Notes under the pieces: model-generated | The model's input: the letters and a program-made list of their open reading frames with translations, nothing else | Databases searched by the model: none | What the model was told of the DNA's origin: nothing | NCBI GenBank assembly: GCA_030630935.1 | Contig: DAOVMD010000214.1 | Location: 1 to 5,937, forward strand | Origin: Candidatus Mcinerneyibacteriota bacterium | Lineage (GTDB): Bacteria > AUK180 > JAQVHJ01 | Reading direction: 5' to 3' | Length of the DNA: 5,937 nt | Made by a program: the position numbers and the translations under genes | Part shown: positions 1-5,937 of the stretch, in pieces | Layout of the letters: each line of letters starts with the position of its first letter | Numbering within the stretch: the stretch's first letter is position 1

Positions 1-68
1 TCACTGAAATTCATTTGACAACCGTAGGTCTTTATGTAAATTTTCTTAATTGCGAGTTGTACTTTCAT
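1..68 (-). CDS. miaB: MiaB-type tRNA methylthiotransferase, N-terminal fragment (cut by window edge)
   Basis: Only the first 22 codons lie inside the window: ATG at 68-66 on the minus strand, reading MKVQLAIKKIYIKTYGCQMNFS. The TYGCQMN motif is characteristic of the N-terminal methylthiotransferase domain of MiaB. Its cysteine (residue 17) is the first of three that bind the auxiliary [4Fe-4S] cluster. RimO normally has TLGCPKN and MtaB has TLGCKVN, so MiaB fits best. MiaB is a cytosolic radical-SAM enzyme that adds a methylthio group to i6A37 of tRNAs reading UNN codons. The ATG shares one base with the kinase stop codon (TGATG). The purine run GAAGAAG (77-71) lies only 2 nt from the ATG, too close for a normal ribosome binding site, so translation probably depends on termination of the kinase gene. 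The radical-SAM CxxxCxxC and TRAM regions lie outside the window. Confidence 0.85.
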   Translation of the reverse strand, partial: MKVQLAIKKIYIKTYGCQMNFS

Positions 69-1522
69 CACTTCTTCATTAATTCTTTACATTTCTTCAA
101 TGCATATTTACCCATCGCTGAATCCGGAGATAATTCAATTATCTTCCTGTAATATCTTCTTGCATTTCTTTTATCACCTCGATCAACAAAGTACTCTGCT
201 AAATCTAATAAAATTTCAATCTCTGAACTACCAGGAAAACGAATTAATTTCTCAGCATATTCAATAGCTTTTTTATCGTGATTGATGTCTTTTGCATATT
301 TAAATAGGTCCCTGTAAATCGTAAGTTTATAATCCGGGTTCTCAATAACAAATTCCTCACCGGCTTGAAAAACTTCATTAATCTTCCCTTCCCTCTTCAA
401 AATCTCCATCTTATTTAAAATACTCAGTTCATTTACCACAGGTTCATCAGTAAATAGATTCATAACTTTAAGTTTTATTTGAATTAAAGTATTCCCAATA
501 ACTGGAATCTCAATTTTATCAGAGAAAATTGTTGCTGCCACAAAAAGTAAAAATAATAAAAACACAACCTTCATTAGTTGAGAGAAAAAATCTTTAACAT
601 TATAACTAACTTTTATTTTGGATTTCTTTGCAGGGAATGATTGAGTTTGAACATTGTTTGAAATTCTCTGTTTTGGTCGACTTCGAGTGATTGTTGATTC
701 TGAATCAATTAGTTTCTCCTCCCTATTCAATTCTTCAATAACTTCTTCAATACTTTGAAACCTGTCCTCAGGATAAAGTGTTATTAACTTCATTGCAACC
801 TGCCCTAAACGATATGGAATGAATGGATTCTTGGTGATAGGGTCAACAGGTGGTTCGCGTAATTTCTTTTTCATAAGCTCTTTCTTCGTTGGAGCATAAT
901 ATGGAAGCTCACCTGTCAGGAGTTCGTATAAAACTATACCAAGTGAATAGAGATCGGTACGCTTATCAATTGCTTCACCTCTTAACTGTTCAGGTGCCAT
1001 GTATTCAACTGTCCCAACTAATAACCTCTTTGTTAGCTCTACCTTACCCTCAATCTTTCCAATTCCAAAGTCTGTAATCTTTATCTGACCTTCCTTAGTC
1101 TGAAGAATATTATTTGCCTTAATATCAAGATGCAGAATTCCCTGATCATGAATATATCTAATCGCTTCACAAATCTCTCTGAATAAAATTAGGATCTCTT
1201 TCCCCGTAAGATTACCACGCTTAATAGTATCCTTCAATGTGTTACCATCGATATGCTCCATTGCAAAATAATGATGATTACCATATTGATTAATATCAAA
1301 AATCTTAACAATATATTTATGATTCAACTTTGCCATCGCTTCTGCTTCTGTATAAAACATATCTACAATGCGCTTATCCTTTGCGTGTACAGGGAGCAAA
1401 ACCTTTAATGCAACATTCCTATTTAAAACTATATGGCGGGCAATGTAAACTATTGCCATACCACCTTGACCTAATTTACCAAATATTTCATATCGATCAA
1501 ATTTATACTTCTTCCCGGTCAT
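68..1522 (-). CDS. Membrane-anchored Hanks-type Ser/Thr protein kinase with C-terminal TPR-like domain
   Basis: A 484-aa protein. The kinase domain spans about residues 10-266. Visible motifs are a glycine-rich loop (LGQGGMAIV, 17-25), ATP-anchoring Lys40 (VALK), helix-C Glu59, catalytic loop HLDIKANN (131-138: Asp133, Lys135, Asn138), DFG (151-153), APE (176-178), Asp190 in DLYSLG, and Arg254. All catalytic residues are present, so it should phosphorylate Ser/Thr. The Arg of HRD is Leu132, making it a non-RD kinase. Thr164 and Thr171 are candidate activation-loop phosphosites. One membrane segment (about 317-334) follows a basic stretch. Residues about 366-484 form helical TPR-like repeats, probably on the far side of the membrane; PASTA repeats are absent. 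The ATG overlaps the TAA of the upstream pseudokinase gene by one base. A GAGGG 12 nt upstream is a poorly spaced ribosome binding site, which favours translational coupling. The substrate is unknown. Confidence 0.95.
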   Translation of the reverse strand: MTGKKYKFDRYEIFGKLGQGGMAIVYIARHIVLNRNVALKVLLPVHAKDKRIVDMFYTEAEAMAKLNHKYIVKIFDINQYGNHHYFAMEHIDGNTLKDTIKRGNLTGKEILILFREICEAIRYIHDQGILHLDIKANNILQTKEGQIKITDFGIGKIEGKVELTKRLLVGTVEYMAPEQLRGEAIDKRTDLYSLGIVLYELLTGELPYYAPTKKELMKKKLREPPVDPITKNPFIPYRLGQVAMKLITLYPEDRFQSIEEVIEELNREEKLIDSESTITRSRPKQRISNNVQTQSFPAKKSKIKVSYNVKDFFSQLMKVVFLLFLLFVAATIFSDKIEIPVIGNTLIQIKLKVMNLFTDEPVVNELSILNKMEILKREGKINEVFQAGEEFVIENPDYKLTIYRDLFKYAKDINHDKKAIEYAEKLIRFPGSSEIEILLDLAEYFVDRGDKRNARRYYRKIIELSPDSAMGKYALKKCKELMKK

Positions 1523-3735
1523 TATTTAATCTTACCCTCGCGCCGCATAATAACAATCGCTTTATAAGCAAGTTTACCTTCTGTGTATTTTGGATAATAA
1601 TGCCTAACCAAAACATCATATTCTATTTTCGCACTCTTATACCAATGAATGGCCCTGTAATAATCGGCTAATGCTAAACGGGCTTCACGCCTAATCTCTG
1701 AACTCCCAGGAGTACTTTTTAGAAAAGCCTTCATTACTTTAACACCTGACTTGAGGTCGCCCTTTTTCTTATAAATATTAGCAAGGGTTCTGGAATATTT
1801 CAGTTTTTGGTCAATTTTTACGCCTGCCTTGGATATTAATTCATCTAACATTTTAATGGAGTCATTGTACATAGAAAGCTCAATATAACGGGCAAGTAAC
1901 TCGTGTCGAGCCATATCTTTCCGGGTTTCCGATTGATTATCATCATTTAAAATTATAAAAATCTCTACCAGCTCAGGATCTGTTTCGATATAATAATCAC
2001 GTAATTTATTATAAGACTGATTCCTGATCTCCTTATTAGCTTTTCTGTCATCATAAATCTCTCGAAGCTGCTTGACATAATCATCAAATCTCTCGTCTTC
2101 ATAATATAAATTGGCTAATGCAAGCCTGACTTCATCAAATTCCTTACCCTTATATTTACCGGTTGAAATATCTGTAACATATAAGGCAATCTGTTCTCGA
2201 AGCTGCTTCTCTAATTTCCTGGTCCTGCCTTTGGAGAACATTCCGGAAACTACAAAAAATAAAATAACAACGATTACTGCAATTCCAATATACATTAATA
2301 ATTTCTTGCTAATTGTTACACTTTCCTTCTTAATTTCTAAATCGGAAACAGGACCCTCTGAAACTGAATCAGAAGAAGGTTTTGACTCTTTATCCGAAGG
2401 AGGAGCAGTCTCTAATGCCTGGGTCTTCTCTTCATCTAACTTCCGCTGCTCGTCTATCTTCGTTAATAACTCCTTGTGTTTCTGTTCTTTTAGCTGCTTA
2501 TCAATTACTGCTTGCTTCTGCTCTTCTTCCTTATGCTTAAGTAATTCTGCTTCTCGACGAGCTGATTCTTCCTGCTGAAGTTTAAATTGCTTCTTCTCCA
2601 ACCGATCCTTATACTCAAGATAACAGTTTGCACAATAATAAATCCCTTCCAACTCCTCTACACAATCACTACAAAAATACTTCTTACAACCGGGACAAGG
2701 GTTCTTAAGTGCGTGACGTTTCGGATGAAATTCACAAAAATGCTCAGTAACATCTTCTGAAGTAGAGTCGGATTCCTTAACGGGTTCTCCGGGAAATTCT
2801 GTAACGTGCATGTCTAATGTCTCTTCACAATCCTTACAGAACGGTGAATCTCTTATTAATTTAATGCATTCCGAACATAACTCCTTACCACATCGTGAAC
2901 ATACTTCTGCGGCAACACGGGAAGGATGAACTTTACAAAATTTTACCTGACCGGCCTTGACTAAAGATAAGGCTTTCTTAACTTCTGTTAAAGTTGGACG
3001 ATGACTCGAATCAATGCTTATCATTGCTGAAATGAAATTACGCCACTTCTCTGGAATCTCCTCAATATAAGACTCTGATACACCAGCTGCTGCCTTAGGA
3101 CCAAATTCAAAAAAGTTTTGAGGTTTAAAAGGAAGCTTACCCGTTAATATAAATGCTAACATTAAACCAAGTGAGTAAACATCCGATTTCTCTGTAAGTT
3201 TTTCTAATCCCAATACTTCTGGTGCTATGAAAACAATTCGCTTTGATGCTAATGAACTAGATAAAATTTTTAAAATATCTAAATTCGAAATATCAACAAA
3301 ATTATCCTGGAAATAAATATCTAAATTCTGATTCATTTCTAAAAACGAAGTATTTAACAGCCCAAAGTAAATTTCTTTCTTATGAAAGTGTTGTAGAAAA
3401 TCAACTACTTTAAGAAAAACTTTGATTAGAAGAGTTTCATTTTTTAATTTATCATAAAAATCTTGAAAACTTCGAATCTCCTTAACTGTCTCAACTAAAT
3501 AAAAATATTTATCAAATTCTCCGAATTCCGAAATCACATTTAAAGGGATTGAAAGTGAATTTAATTGTTCAATACGATTTTTTATTAGGTTTATAAATTC
3601 TTCGTTTTTAGCAAAATCATCCTTGATAACCTTAATCCAAAAATATTTCCCAACTGAATTCTTCGCCAGGAGAAGATTGTAAAACCCGCAATCTTCGAGC
3701 TTTTTCACAATCTCATACTTATTATTTATCTGCAT
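1522..3735 (-). CDS. Membrane pseudokinase with tandem B-box-like zinc fingers, coiled coil and C-terminal TPR-like repeats
   Basis: A 737-aa protein. Residues 7-258 have a protein kinase fold: Lys35 (FWIKV), APE (171-173), SDVYSLG (Asp185) and HRPT (Arg246) are kept. The catalytic loop reads about YFGLLNTSF (123-131) instead of HRDxKxxN, the glycine-rich loop is lost (LEDCGFYN), and DFG is replaced (possibly DNF, 144-146). It should therefore lack phosphotransfer. Two zinc fingers follow with nearly identical spacing: Cys267/His270/Cys279/Cys282/Cys287/Cys290/Cys300/Cys303, and Cys334/His337/Cys347/Cys350/Cys355/Cys358/Cys368/Cys371. Each has eight ligands, enough for two zinc ions. Residues about 372-440 are Lys/Glu/Gln-rich and probably coiled coil. 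A low-complexity Ser/Pro linker leads to a membrane segment (479-500). Residues 505-737 look like TPR-like helical pairs. It is the first gene of the operon, with a good ribosome binding site (AAGGA, 7 nt from ATG). A scaffold or regulator of the neighbouring kinase is inferred. Confidence 0.9.
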   Translation of the reverse strand: MQINNKYEIVKKLEDCGFYNLLLAKNSVGKYFWIKVIKDDFAKNEEFINLIKNRIEQLNSLSIPLNVISEFGEFDKYFYLVETVKEIRSFQDFYDKLKNETLLIKVFLKVVDFLQHFHKKEIYFGLLNTSFLEMNQNLDIYFQDNFVDISNLDILKILSSSLASKRIVFIAPEVLGLEKLTEKSDVYSLGLMLAFILTGKLPFKPQNFFEFGPKAAAGVSESYIEEIPEKWRNFISAMISIDSSHRPTLTEVKKALSLVKAGQVKFCKVHPSRVAAEVCSRCGKELCSECIKLIRDSPFCKDCEETLDMHVTEFPGEPVKESDSTSEDVTEHFCEFHPKRHALKNPCPGCKKYFCSDCVEELEGIYYCANCYLEYKDRLEKKQFKLQQEESARREAELLKHKEEEQKQAVIDKQLKEQKHKELLTKIDEQRKLDEEKTQALETAPPSDKESKPSSDSVSEGPVSDLEIKKESVTISKKLLMYIGIAVIVVILFFVVSGMFSKGRTRKLEKQLREQIALYVTDISTGKYKGKEFDEVRLALANLYYEDERFDDYVKQLREIYDDRKANKEIRNQSYNKLRDYYIETDPELVEIFIILNDDNQSETRKDMARHELLARYIELSMYNDSIKMLDELISKAGVKIDQKLKYSRTLANIYKKKGDLKSGVKVMKAFLKSTPGSSEIRREARLALADYYRAIHWYKSAKIEYDVLVRHYYPKYTEGKLAYKAIVIMRREGKIK

Positions 3736-3771: not shown

Positions 3772-3800
3772 ATTATAACATATTAAATAAAAGTAGTCAA
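3772..3800 (-). promoter_or_regulatory. Sigma-70-type promoter with extended -10 for the pseudokinase-kinase-miaB operon
   Basis: On the minus strand, -35 TTGACT (3800-3795), a 17-nt spacer and -10 TATAAT (3777-3772). The -10 is preceded by TGT, giving an extended -10 (TGTTATAAT). Transcription should start near 3765, leaving a leader of about 30 nt that contains the AAGGA ribosome binding site. Only one base departs from the -35 consensus, so strong constitutive expression is expected. No operator was recognised. Confidence 0.8.
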
Positions 3801-3963: not shown

Positions 3964-4090
3964 AAATAAAATCAAAATGGTCTTTTTTAATAATCTACGT
4001 ATATTAATATTGAATTTTATTCATAAAAGTCAACCATTTACCGGTCTCCTTTTATCTTGCCAATAACCATCAATCATAAATCATAAATGT

Positions 4091-4112
4091 AAAAGGGAGC
4101 AAGCTCCCTTTT
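4091..4112. repeat. Hairpin 4: 10-bp inverted repeat with A and T flanks
   Basis: AAAAGGGAGC and GCTCCCTTTT are exact reverse complements around AA. The GC core plus a T-tract has the form of a bidirectional intrinsic terminator, but no visible gene ends here. It could insulate the transporter promoter from stray upstream transcription, or be another dispersed palindrome. Confidence 0.6.
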
Positions 4113-4117
4113 AAAAG

Positions 4118-4133
4118 GCGAAACTAGTTTCGC
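4118..4133 (+). repeat. Hairpin 5: 16-nt perfect palindrome before the transporter promoter
   Basis: GCGAAACTAGTTTCGC is a perfect palindrome followed by ATTTTTA, and it ends 17 nt before the -35 box of the transporter. It could be a small plus-strand terminator or an operator for a dimeric regulator. Nothing in the sequence decides between these, and a repeat origin like its neighbours is equally possible. Confidence 0.5.
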
Positions 4134-4150
4134 ATTTTTATGCTTTACAC

Positions 4151-4179
4151 TTGACAATATTTGATTTTTGTTTTATAAT
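4151..4179 (+). promoter_or_regulatory. Consensus sigma-70-type promoter of the transporter gene
   Basis: Exact TTGACA (4151-4156), a 17-nt spacer and exact TATAAT (4174-4179). Transcription should begin about 7 nt further on, at or next to A4186, the first base of the ATG. The in-frame TTG at 4168 lies inside the promoter spacer and would not be transcribed from here, which argues for the ATG start and for a leaderless message. Confidence 0.85.
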
Positions 4180-4185
4180 AGTTTT

Positions 4186-5571
4186 ATGAAGCAGAAAAAA
4201 TCAATTATCCAGCAAACTATTCGTATTTCTATAAAGGAAGGTGTTTTTTCTCAGATTTTCAAGACTATCGCAGGTCCTGAGAGTATTTTTATTACTAAGT
4301 TTGCAATTATTTTAGGAGCAACTCCATTTCATTTTGCAATTCTTTCCGCAATTGGTCATCTTTCTCAGGTCTTCAGGCCTTTAGGGGTGGTCATCTCAAA
4401 TAAATTGCATTCACGAAAGAGTACTGTACTTCGAATAGTTGGACTTGGTCGAATTTTAGCTGTTTTCTTCGGAATGCTCCCATTCTTTCTACTCGGGAAA
4501 TATACCATTGAAGCATTTTTAATTTTGTTCTTTGTGAGTAATTCAATTCAAGCTGTAGGTTCAAATGCTTGGATAGCCTGGATAGCTGATTTAATACCTT
4601 TAAAGATCAGGGGAAGGTTCTTTTCATGGCGAGTCCAATATTCTATGTTCTTCGGTTTAATAATAGGCTATGTAATTAGTATTTTCCTTGACCTTTTTAA
4701 AACAGATCCGGGAAACATTGCTCAGAATCTACAGACTGTTTTGGAAAGTACAAGGATTTTATCTCAGATTAATATCTTAATTGCTTTTGCTGGGATTTTC
4801 ATTTTTGCAGCATTTATGGGGATCTGGAGTCTAAAGATTTTATCGAAACAACACGAAAGACCAAGAGATATAGAAACAGAAAAATTTAAGGATATTTTAA
4901 TCACACCGTTAAAAGATAAGAATTTCCGAAAAGTTTTATTATATGGTTTCTGGTGGATGTTAACGCTTGGAATTGGAGCACCTTTCTGGGTGCCGTTTAT
5001 GATGACAAAACTTGGAATGACCTTAGTCCAGGTTCAGATATATTTCACAATCAGAATAATGGCAACTTTACTTACATTACCTACCTGGGGAAGGATGATA
5101 GATAGATTCGGAAATAAAACTTCTATGCGTGTTGTAATTTTACTCGGTGGTATAACTCCGTTATTATGGTTATTTGCAAGTAAAACAATGTACTGGTTCA
5201 TATTCCTTGAAGCGATTGGGTCAGGGATTGCATGGGCAGGCTCAGAGATAATCTCGAGGAATTTTATTCTCGCAATTGCTCCGCCAAATAGAAGACAGAT
5301 CTATTCAGGAGTCTTCGGAGCATTCTCAGGGGTTGCAATTATGATTACAATGTTATTATCAGGAATTTTTATCCCAAGCTCAGCAGTCGAAATATTTAAA
5401 TTCCACTTAGAACCGGAACAGATACTTTTCGGGATAACAGGAATCGCAAGATGGACGACTCAATTCTCATTAGGTTGGATTAATGAACCAAAATCTAAAT
5501 CTTTAAGAGAAGTAACCTTCGAACTATTAGGTTGGGAGATACCTGAATTCTTAAAAAAGAAAACGAAATAA
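4186..5571 (+). CDS. Major facilitator superfamily (MFS) transporter
   Basis: A 461-aa, strongly hydrophobic protein with about 10-12 membrane segments in two halves. They are separated by a charged cytoplasmic loop near residues 219-250 (KQHERPRDIETEKFKD). The MFS loop signature appears as GRMIDRFGNK (302-311, a G-x-x-x-D-R-x-G-x-K form) in the C-terminal half. The N-terminal half has WIADLIP followed by RGRFFSWR (132-149). The frame extends 6 codons further to a TTG at 4168, but that codon sits inside the consensus promoter and has no ribosome binding site. The ATG at 4186 (MKQKKSIIQQ) is therefore chosen. No Shine-Dalgarno precedes it, consistent with a leaderless mRNA. The gene is monocistronic here and divergent from the kinase operon. 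The substrate cannot be inferred; an uptake carrier or an efflux pump are both possible. Confidence 0.9.
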   Translation: MKQKKSIIQQTIRISIKEGVFSQIFKTIAGPESIFITKFAIILGATPFHFAILSAIGHLSQVFRPLGVVISNKLHSRKSTVLRIVGLGRILAVFFGMLPFFLLGKYTIEAFLILFFVSNSIQAVGSNAWIAWIADLIPLKIRGRFFSWRVQYSMFFGLIIGYVISIFLDLFKTDPGNIAQNLQTVLESTRILSQINILIAFAGIFIFAAFMGIWSLKILSKQHERPRDIETEKFKDILITPLKDKNFRKVLLYGFWWMLTLGIGAPFWVPFMMTKLGMTLVQVQIYFTIRIMATLLTLPTWGRMIDRFGNKTSMRVVILLGGITPLLWLFASKTMYWFIFLEAIGSGIAWAGSEIISRNFILAIAPPNRRQIYSGVFGAFSGVAIMITMLLSGIFIPSSAVEIFKFHLEPEQILFGITGIARWTTQFSLGWINEPKSKSLREVTFELLGWEIPEFLKKKTK

Positions 5572-5752: not shown

Positions 5753-5787
5753 CTCGCTTCGCTCAAACTTTTTTATTTGACAGAGAA
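5753..5787 (+). repeat. 35-bp direct repeat, copy 1
   Basis: Identical over 35 bp to 5903-5937. It starts CTCGCTTCGCTC, contains a six-T run and ends TTGACAGAGAA. Just after it, ACAGAGAACTAACAAGAACTT (5780-5800) resembles 5574-5594 after the transporter stop in 18 of 21 positions, suggesting a third, degenerate partial copy. Confidence 0.85.
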
Positions 5788-5902: not shown

Positions 5903-5937
5903 CTCGCTTCGCTCAAACTTTTTTATTTGACAGAGAA
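5903..5937 (+). repeat. 35-bp direct repeat, copy 2 (reaches window edge)
   Basis: Exact copy of 5753-5787, starting 150 bp further on. The match runs to the last base of the window, so the true repeat may be longer. Whether it is a tandem array, a dispersed repeat or the edge of an inserted element cannot be decided here. Confidence 0.85.

Follow-up and report, generated by a model that had tools for sequence, protein, structure and literature searches.

Two overlapping genes on the minus strand of contig DAOVMD010000214.1 of a Candidatus Mcinerneyibacteriota bacterium (assembly GCA_030630935.1) encode a protein pseudokinase and, directly after it, an active-type Ser/Thr kinase. The window analysed here is the whole contig of 5,937 nucleotides (G000:C123). 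Comparative evidence points to a dedicated gene pair, since the two genes are inherited together, are probably paralogous, appear to be coupled in translation behind a single predicted upstream promoter and share the same architecture. We lean, if only slightly, towards reading them as a membrane signalling pair in which the pseudokinase would serve as a non-catalytic, allosteric regulatory co-receptor of the kinase.

The sequence-only reading of this DNA had described two adjacent genes joined by a one-base TAATG overlap, each encoding a kinase fold, one membrane helix and C-terminal helical repeats. This description was borne out, as both open reading frames were recovered on the minus strand with base 1522 in common, and the order of the domains was found by Pfam (Pkinase and TPR_14), in an AlphaFold model and by hydropathy. 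Overlooked at that stage were the retained Lys35 and Asp144 of the pseudokinase, its two zinc-ligand modules and long charged helix, the non-RD state of the partner kinase and the probable paralogy of the two. The pair is real and conserved. The phylum sample comprised seven genomes from two families (f1: G000 and G001; f2: G002-G006) and six genera. Adjacency in related genomes, on which the earlier proposal depended, was present in all seven, with the kinase gene adjoining the pseudokinase gene in the same order. The junction was TAATG in five genomes and a gap of 1-2 nt in the other two. Profiles built from the pair found full-length matches within the phylum only: the pseudokinase with its zinc region in 7 of 386 genomes (478 bits against 63 for the next match, an ordinary kinase), and the full-length kinase in 7 of 372 genomes (684 against 276 bits). 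Most of the inspected matches outside the phylum carried canonical catalytic motifs, and no confirmed match to the pair was found in viral contigs.

The gene following the kinase was miaB in all seven genomes, and the f2 loci conserve an entire block in which the pseudokinase, the kinase and miaB are followed by a YfiO/SPOR-domain protein, mutS and a GNAT-like gene. Synteny alone could hold the pair together, the position ahead of miaB and mutS may reflect a shared promoter and no more, and tandem kinases are found elsewhere too. Diverged paralogues that share an operon and work separately, adjacent through a tandem duplication kept in synteny with miaB-mutS, would account for these facts. We regard this as improbable, because the tight junction persists across two families whose pseudokinases are approximately 23% identical, without conservation on the upstream side, and because purifying selection on the pseudokinase is strong. 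In the one pair of close genomes compared (G002 and G003), the pseudokinase had a dN/dS of approximately 0.09 and the kinase one of 0.21, from which the pseudokinase is judged to be a true and maintained protein under purifying selection. A degraded gene is ruled out by this value and by the intact pseudokinase in all seven genomes, and motif drift in a single genome by the fixation of the lost-motif signature across the phylum.

The window pseudokinase was modelled as a kinase fold, which aligned with PknA at a Z score of 23.1 and a root-mean-square deviation (rmsd) of 3.4 over 257 residues; PknB also aligned. The f2 pseudokinases fall below the threshold of Pfam Pkinase, yet are homologous by profile. 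The model of an f2 orthologue was kinase-like over the C-lobe (Z approximately 15), which alone was used, as the N-lobe was of low confidence and the arrangement of the lobes uncertain (rmsd above 10 when both were aligned). The motif states of the seven pseudokinases were read against their partner kinases. The Gly of the Gly-loop is gone in all seven, apart from one chance Gly, and the αC Glu is replaced by Arg throughout (Arg54 in the window). The VAIK Lys is kept in the two f1 proteins only (Lys35 in the window) and lost in the other five. HRD has become F/V/L-G-L/N with loss of the Asp in every case, the catalytic Lys has changed to N/S/A and the catalytic Asn to F/Y/L in all seven. At DFG, the Asp is kept in six of the seven (Asp144 in the window) and the Gly in none. 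The APE Glu, the F-helix Asp and the subdomain XI Arg (Glu173, Asp185 and Arg246 in the window) are retained in all. The previously claimed loss of HRDxKxxN and the Gly-loop, with retention of APE, Asp185 and Arg246, therefore holds for every orthologue and is not a peculiarity of the window, HRD or a complete DFG being found in none of the seven. Both conditions that would have refuted the earlier proposal of a heteromeric complex, with the pseudokinase as allosteric activator or scaffold, failed, and that proposal is supported in part. With its kinase fold and the loss of at least one of the VAIK Lys, the HRD Asp and the DFG Asp, the protein qualifies as a bacterial Ser/Thr pseudokinase of the Hanks fold. 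From the motifs lost and those retained, it is taken to keep its structural core with the chemistry gone.

Since both the VAIK-type Lys35 and the Asp144 in the DFG position are kept, the window pseudokinase may still bind nucleotide. The retention of these two residues in f1, and of the Asp in six of the seven, might also speak for a different enzyme, transferring AMP like SelO or glutamylating like SidJ, or for a nucleotide sensor; SelO and SidJ appear as precedents in a 2025 review of bacterial pseudokinases (PMC12599244). Such a role is highly improbable, given that the f2 proteins are without the VAIK Lys, that all seven are without the Gly-loop, the αC Glu and the catalytic-loop residues, and that a new conserved catalytic cluster is not apparent.

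Comparison of the f2 pseudokinase profile with the kinase profile gave an alignment from the αC region through the transmembrane helix to the final residue (probability 94.6, E = 7e-8). This supports paralogy: both are probably paralogues over their full length, one of them having acquired zinc modules and a stalk. In the phylogenetic tree the pseudokinases and the kinases each formed one clade (support 100/99 and 95/84, respectively), and both clades showed the same split into two families, so the phylum's ancestor probably had both genes. The long branch of the pseudokinase prevents this tree from placing it among the kinases or deriving it from the partner kinase.

The partner kinase (Pfam Pkinase, 183 bits) had been credited with all catalytic residues. 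Lys40, Asp133, Asn138 and Asp151 are indeed invariant in the seven orthologues, as are Glu59 and Lys135, but the full HRD motif did not stand up, as HLD or HMD replaces it in all seven and HLD in the window. This non-RD state was found in 7/7 partner kinases versus 2/23 other kinases of the same genomes (Fisher p 2e-5, with kinship ignored). A Thr at the positions of PknB T171/T173 (−8/−6 before GT) occurs in one partner kinase only, that of G006; of the remaining kinases in the phylum, most carry one or both. Of the features expected of a PknB-like receptor kinase, the active residues and the single transmembrane helix are present and the RD motif and T171/T173 are absent. Non-RD kinases are usually independent of activation-loop phosphorylation. 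The non-RD state and the scarcity of PknB-type activation-loop Thr lend new support to an unusual mode of regulation. PknB was the best match among solved structures, and all seven partner kinases retain Leu33, the position altered in the PknB L33D structures. No PASTA repeats were detected in the kinase by Pfam; its C-terminal domain, which we infer to be extracytoplasmic, has TPR-like repeats in their place.

Other kinases deserve brief mention. A further orthologous kinase of f1 is also non-RD, with HLDVSPQN in G000:C380 (L069) and HLDISPHN in G001:C233 (L061). Two more kinase families of 642-757 aa are present in every one of the five f2 genomes, separated by approximately 6-7 kb (at 28920 and 35572 in G004:C30, for example), and in G003 and G004 they are on the same contig as the kinase-pseudokinase pair. 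In another phylum, the protein L089 (G378:C295, minus strand), longer than 1000 aa, contains three degenerate tandem kinase domains (HLAIKPNN, AHGALKPGH and VYGRVSPES) and a C-terminal part that is possibly phosphatase-like.

Two Cys-rich modules follow the pseudokinase domain, ahead of the membrane helix; their putative zinc ligands (C279, C282, C300 and C303; C334, H337, C347, C350, C355, C358 and C368) are invariant in all seven orthologues. Pfam zf-B_box scored 15-20 bits on these modules, below the cut-off of 24.1, though the spacing of the ligands is similar. The linker is otherwise variable, and retains F-x(6-9)-T-[IV]-[ST]-E in all five f2 proteins. This plausible phosphosite, together with the two conserved zinc modules, such modules being typical docking elements, would suit the main rival explanation, namely that the pseudokinase is a phosphorylated scaffold: the kinase would phosphorylate the linker and the site would recruit an effector, as in PknB-MviN-FhaA of mycobacteria, MviN being the precedent in the review (PMC12599244). 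We consider it unlikely, for conservation of the motif does not extend to f1, where it is loose in the window protein and absent from G001, and a scaffold leaves the non-RD state of the kinase unexplained.

The co-receptor reading may be depicted as follows: One receptor kinase with a kinase domain, a transmembrane helix and a TPR domain would have been duplicated to give both genes. One copy would have stayed catalytic, as a non-RD kinase mostly without PknB-type activation-loop phosphosites, and the other would have lost catalysis and, with an αC Glu-to-Arg substitution and two added zinc modules, become the regulatory co-receptor. One promoter and the coupled junction would cause both proteins to be made together, and these would assemble in the membrane via their kinase domains and/or their TPR domains, the latter sensing or docking on the far side of the membrane and the former meeting in the cytoplasm. 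The pseudokinase would then set the active conformation of the kinase non-catalytically, in place of the usual phospho-switch, with the zinc modules and the linker as an added input or docking site. Allosteric activation by N-lobe dimerisation is established for bacterial receptor kinases (PMC3601408). The more specific claim, that the pseudokinase allosterically switches a non-RD kinase without activation-loop phosphorylation, by a HER3/STRAD-like logic that arose independently in bacteria and operates phylum-wide, is put forward tentatively, as possible rather than probable.

Several points weigh against the co-receptor reading. The pair was found in only seven genomes of a single small phylum, and operon adjacency by itself is no proof of a complex. 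The position of PknB Leu33 is not kept in the pseudokinase and a PknB-like dimer interface is not recognisable there, so the interface cannot be guessed. The C-terminal portion of the match between the two profiles could be generic TPR similarity. The physical complex, the direction of control, the topology and the signal are what we infer rather than what was observed.

Features of the window and the basis of their assignment. Positions refer to the whole contig; aa, amino acids; ORF, open reading frame.
Feature	Positions	Strand	Basis
Pseudokinase gene, 737 aa, first gene of the operon	1522..3735	-	ORF; Pfam Pkinase 53 bits; 7/7 phylum orthologues; AlphaFold model Z 23 to PknA
Pseudokinase domain, residues 1-265	2941..3735	-	Motif comparison with partner kinases; profile match
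Two Cys-rich B-box-like zinc-ligand modules (putative), residues ~264-306 and ~334-371	2623..2946	-	Invariant ligands
Long charged helix, predicted cytoplasmic stalk, residues 369-441	2413..2631	-	DSSP on AlphaFold model
Pseudokinase transmembrane helix, residues 479-497	2245..2301	-	Hydropathy
Pseudokinase C-terminal helical-repeat (TPR-like) domain	1525..2244	-	Pfam TPR_14; helices of the model
TAATG stop/start overlap at 1522, candidate translational coupling	1520..1524	-	Sequence comparison of junctions
Active-type non-RD Ser/Thr kinase gene, 484 aa, 1-base overlap with the pseudokinase stop	68..1522	-	ORF; Pfam
Kinase domain, residues 11-250; K40, E59, D133, K135, N138 and D151 present, HRD is HLD	773..1492	-	Pfam; alignment
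Kinase transmembrane helix, residues 316-334	521..577	-	Hydropathy
Kinase C-terminal TPR-like domain	71..520	-	TPR_14 24.1 bits, cut-off 23.5
First 22 codons of miaB (MKVQLAIKKIYIKTYGCQMNFS), truncated at the contig end and overlapping the kinase stop	1..68	-	Match to starts of miaB orthologues
Promoter-like TTGACT-17-TATAAT, extended TG, 36 nt upstream of the pseudokinase ATG	3772..3800	-	Same arrangement in G001

The promoter arrangement ahead of the pseudokinase gene is thus common to the window and its sister genome G001, that is, to both f1 genomes. All five f2 pseudokinase genes (L037, L038, L034, L035 and L039) have a TAAAAT −10-like box ending approximately 6 nt before the ATG, in most with a TTGAA-like −35 farther upstream, and the position of this box suggests a leaderless mRNA. 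In f1, by contrast, the genes are preceded by a leader that includes a purine-rich, Shine-Dalgarno-like stretch. The miaB orthologue carries the Pfam domains Radical_SAM, UPF0004 and TRAM. A divergent MFS transporter gene (4186-5571) is outside the conserved block, and the gap in front of it (4090-4179) contains two terminator-like hairpins and a promoter matching the consensus at 12/12 positions (4151-4179, plus strand). An exact 35-nt direct repeat is found at 5753-5787 and 5903-5937; the second copy is the very end of the contig and is possibly the reason why the assembly stops there.

Among known systems, the receptor kinases PknB/PrkC/StkP share with the partner kinase the Hanks domain, a juxtamembrane linker, one transmembrane helix, a C-terminal sensor-like domain and the N-lobe Leu33. 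The present kinase differs in its TPR-like instead of PASTA repeats, in HLD instead of HRD, in the lack of T171/T173 equivalents in six of seven and in having a pseudokinase gene in front. Of the pseudokinase families ActPs1-3, GLW, CP1, DYD and DLHK, the comparison covered ActPs3/GLW, by their published description. The mycobacterial MviN/MurJ (ActPs3) is likewise a membrane-linked Ser/Thr-type pseudokinase in which every catalytic motif is degraded, and is functionally tied to a Ser/Thr kinase. Its operon is listed without a kinase in the review (PMC12599244), whereas the present pseudokinase has zinc modules as well and is followed immediately by the overlapping gene of its partner kinase. 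EssB/YukC (T7SSb) also has a pseudokinase domain in a membrane protein and a scaffold role, but is part of a secretion system, and an active paralogous kinase partner is not described for it in that review (PMC12599244).

Pairs of a kinase and a pseudokinase are familiar from eukaryotes, such as HER3-EGFR, STRAD-LKB1 and KSR-RAF. A plant example is EFR, a non-catalytic activator of BAK1 (PMC11259431). These pairs and the present one have in common separate partners of the kinase fold, one of them non-catalytic, with allostery through αC as a working model; the analogy is one of mechanism only and the pairing is not of common descent. The roles differ: the non-RD member regulates in EFR-BAK1 and would catalyse here. 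The 2025 review gives operons for several bacterial pseudokinases and names an adjacent active kinase for none (PMC12599244). A bacterial gene pair of a Ser/Thr kinase and a pseudokinase was not found in the open-access papers searched, and other phyla were not surveyed systematically for tandems. Many pseudokinases occur in bacteria and few have a known partner; in the present case, coupling to a probable active paralogue names the partner. A catalytically active kinase teamed with an inactive one is a pattern familiar above all in animals and plants; the finding suggests that it may exist in bacteria as well, and the two proteins make kinase-pseudokinase allostery in prokaryotes directly testable.

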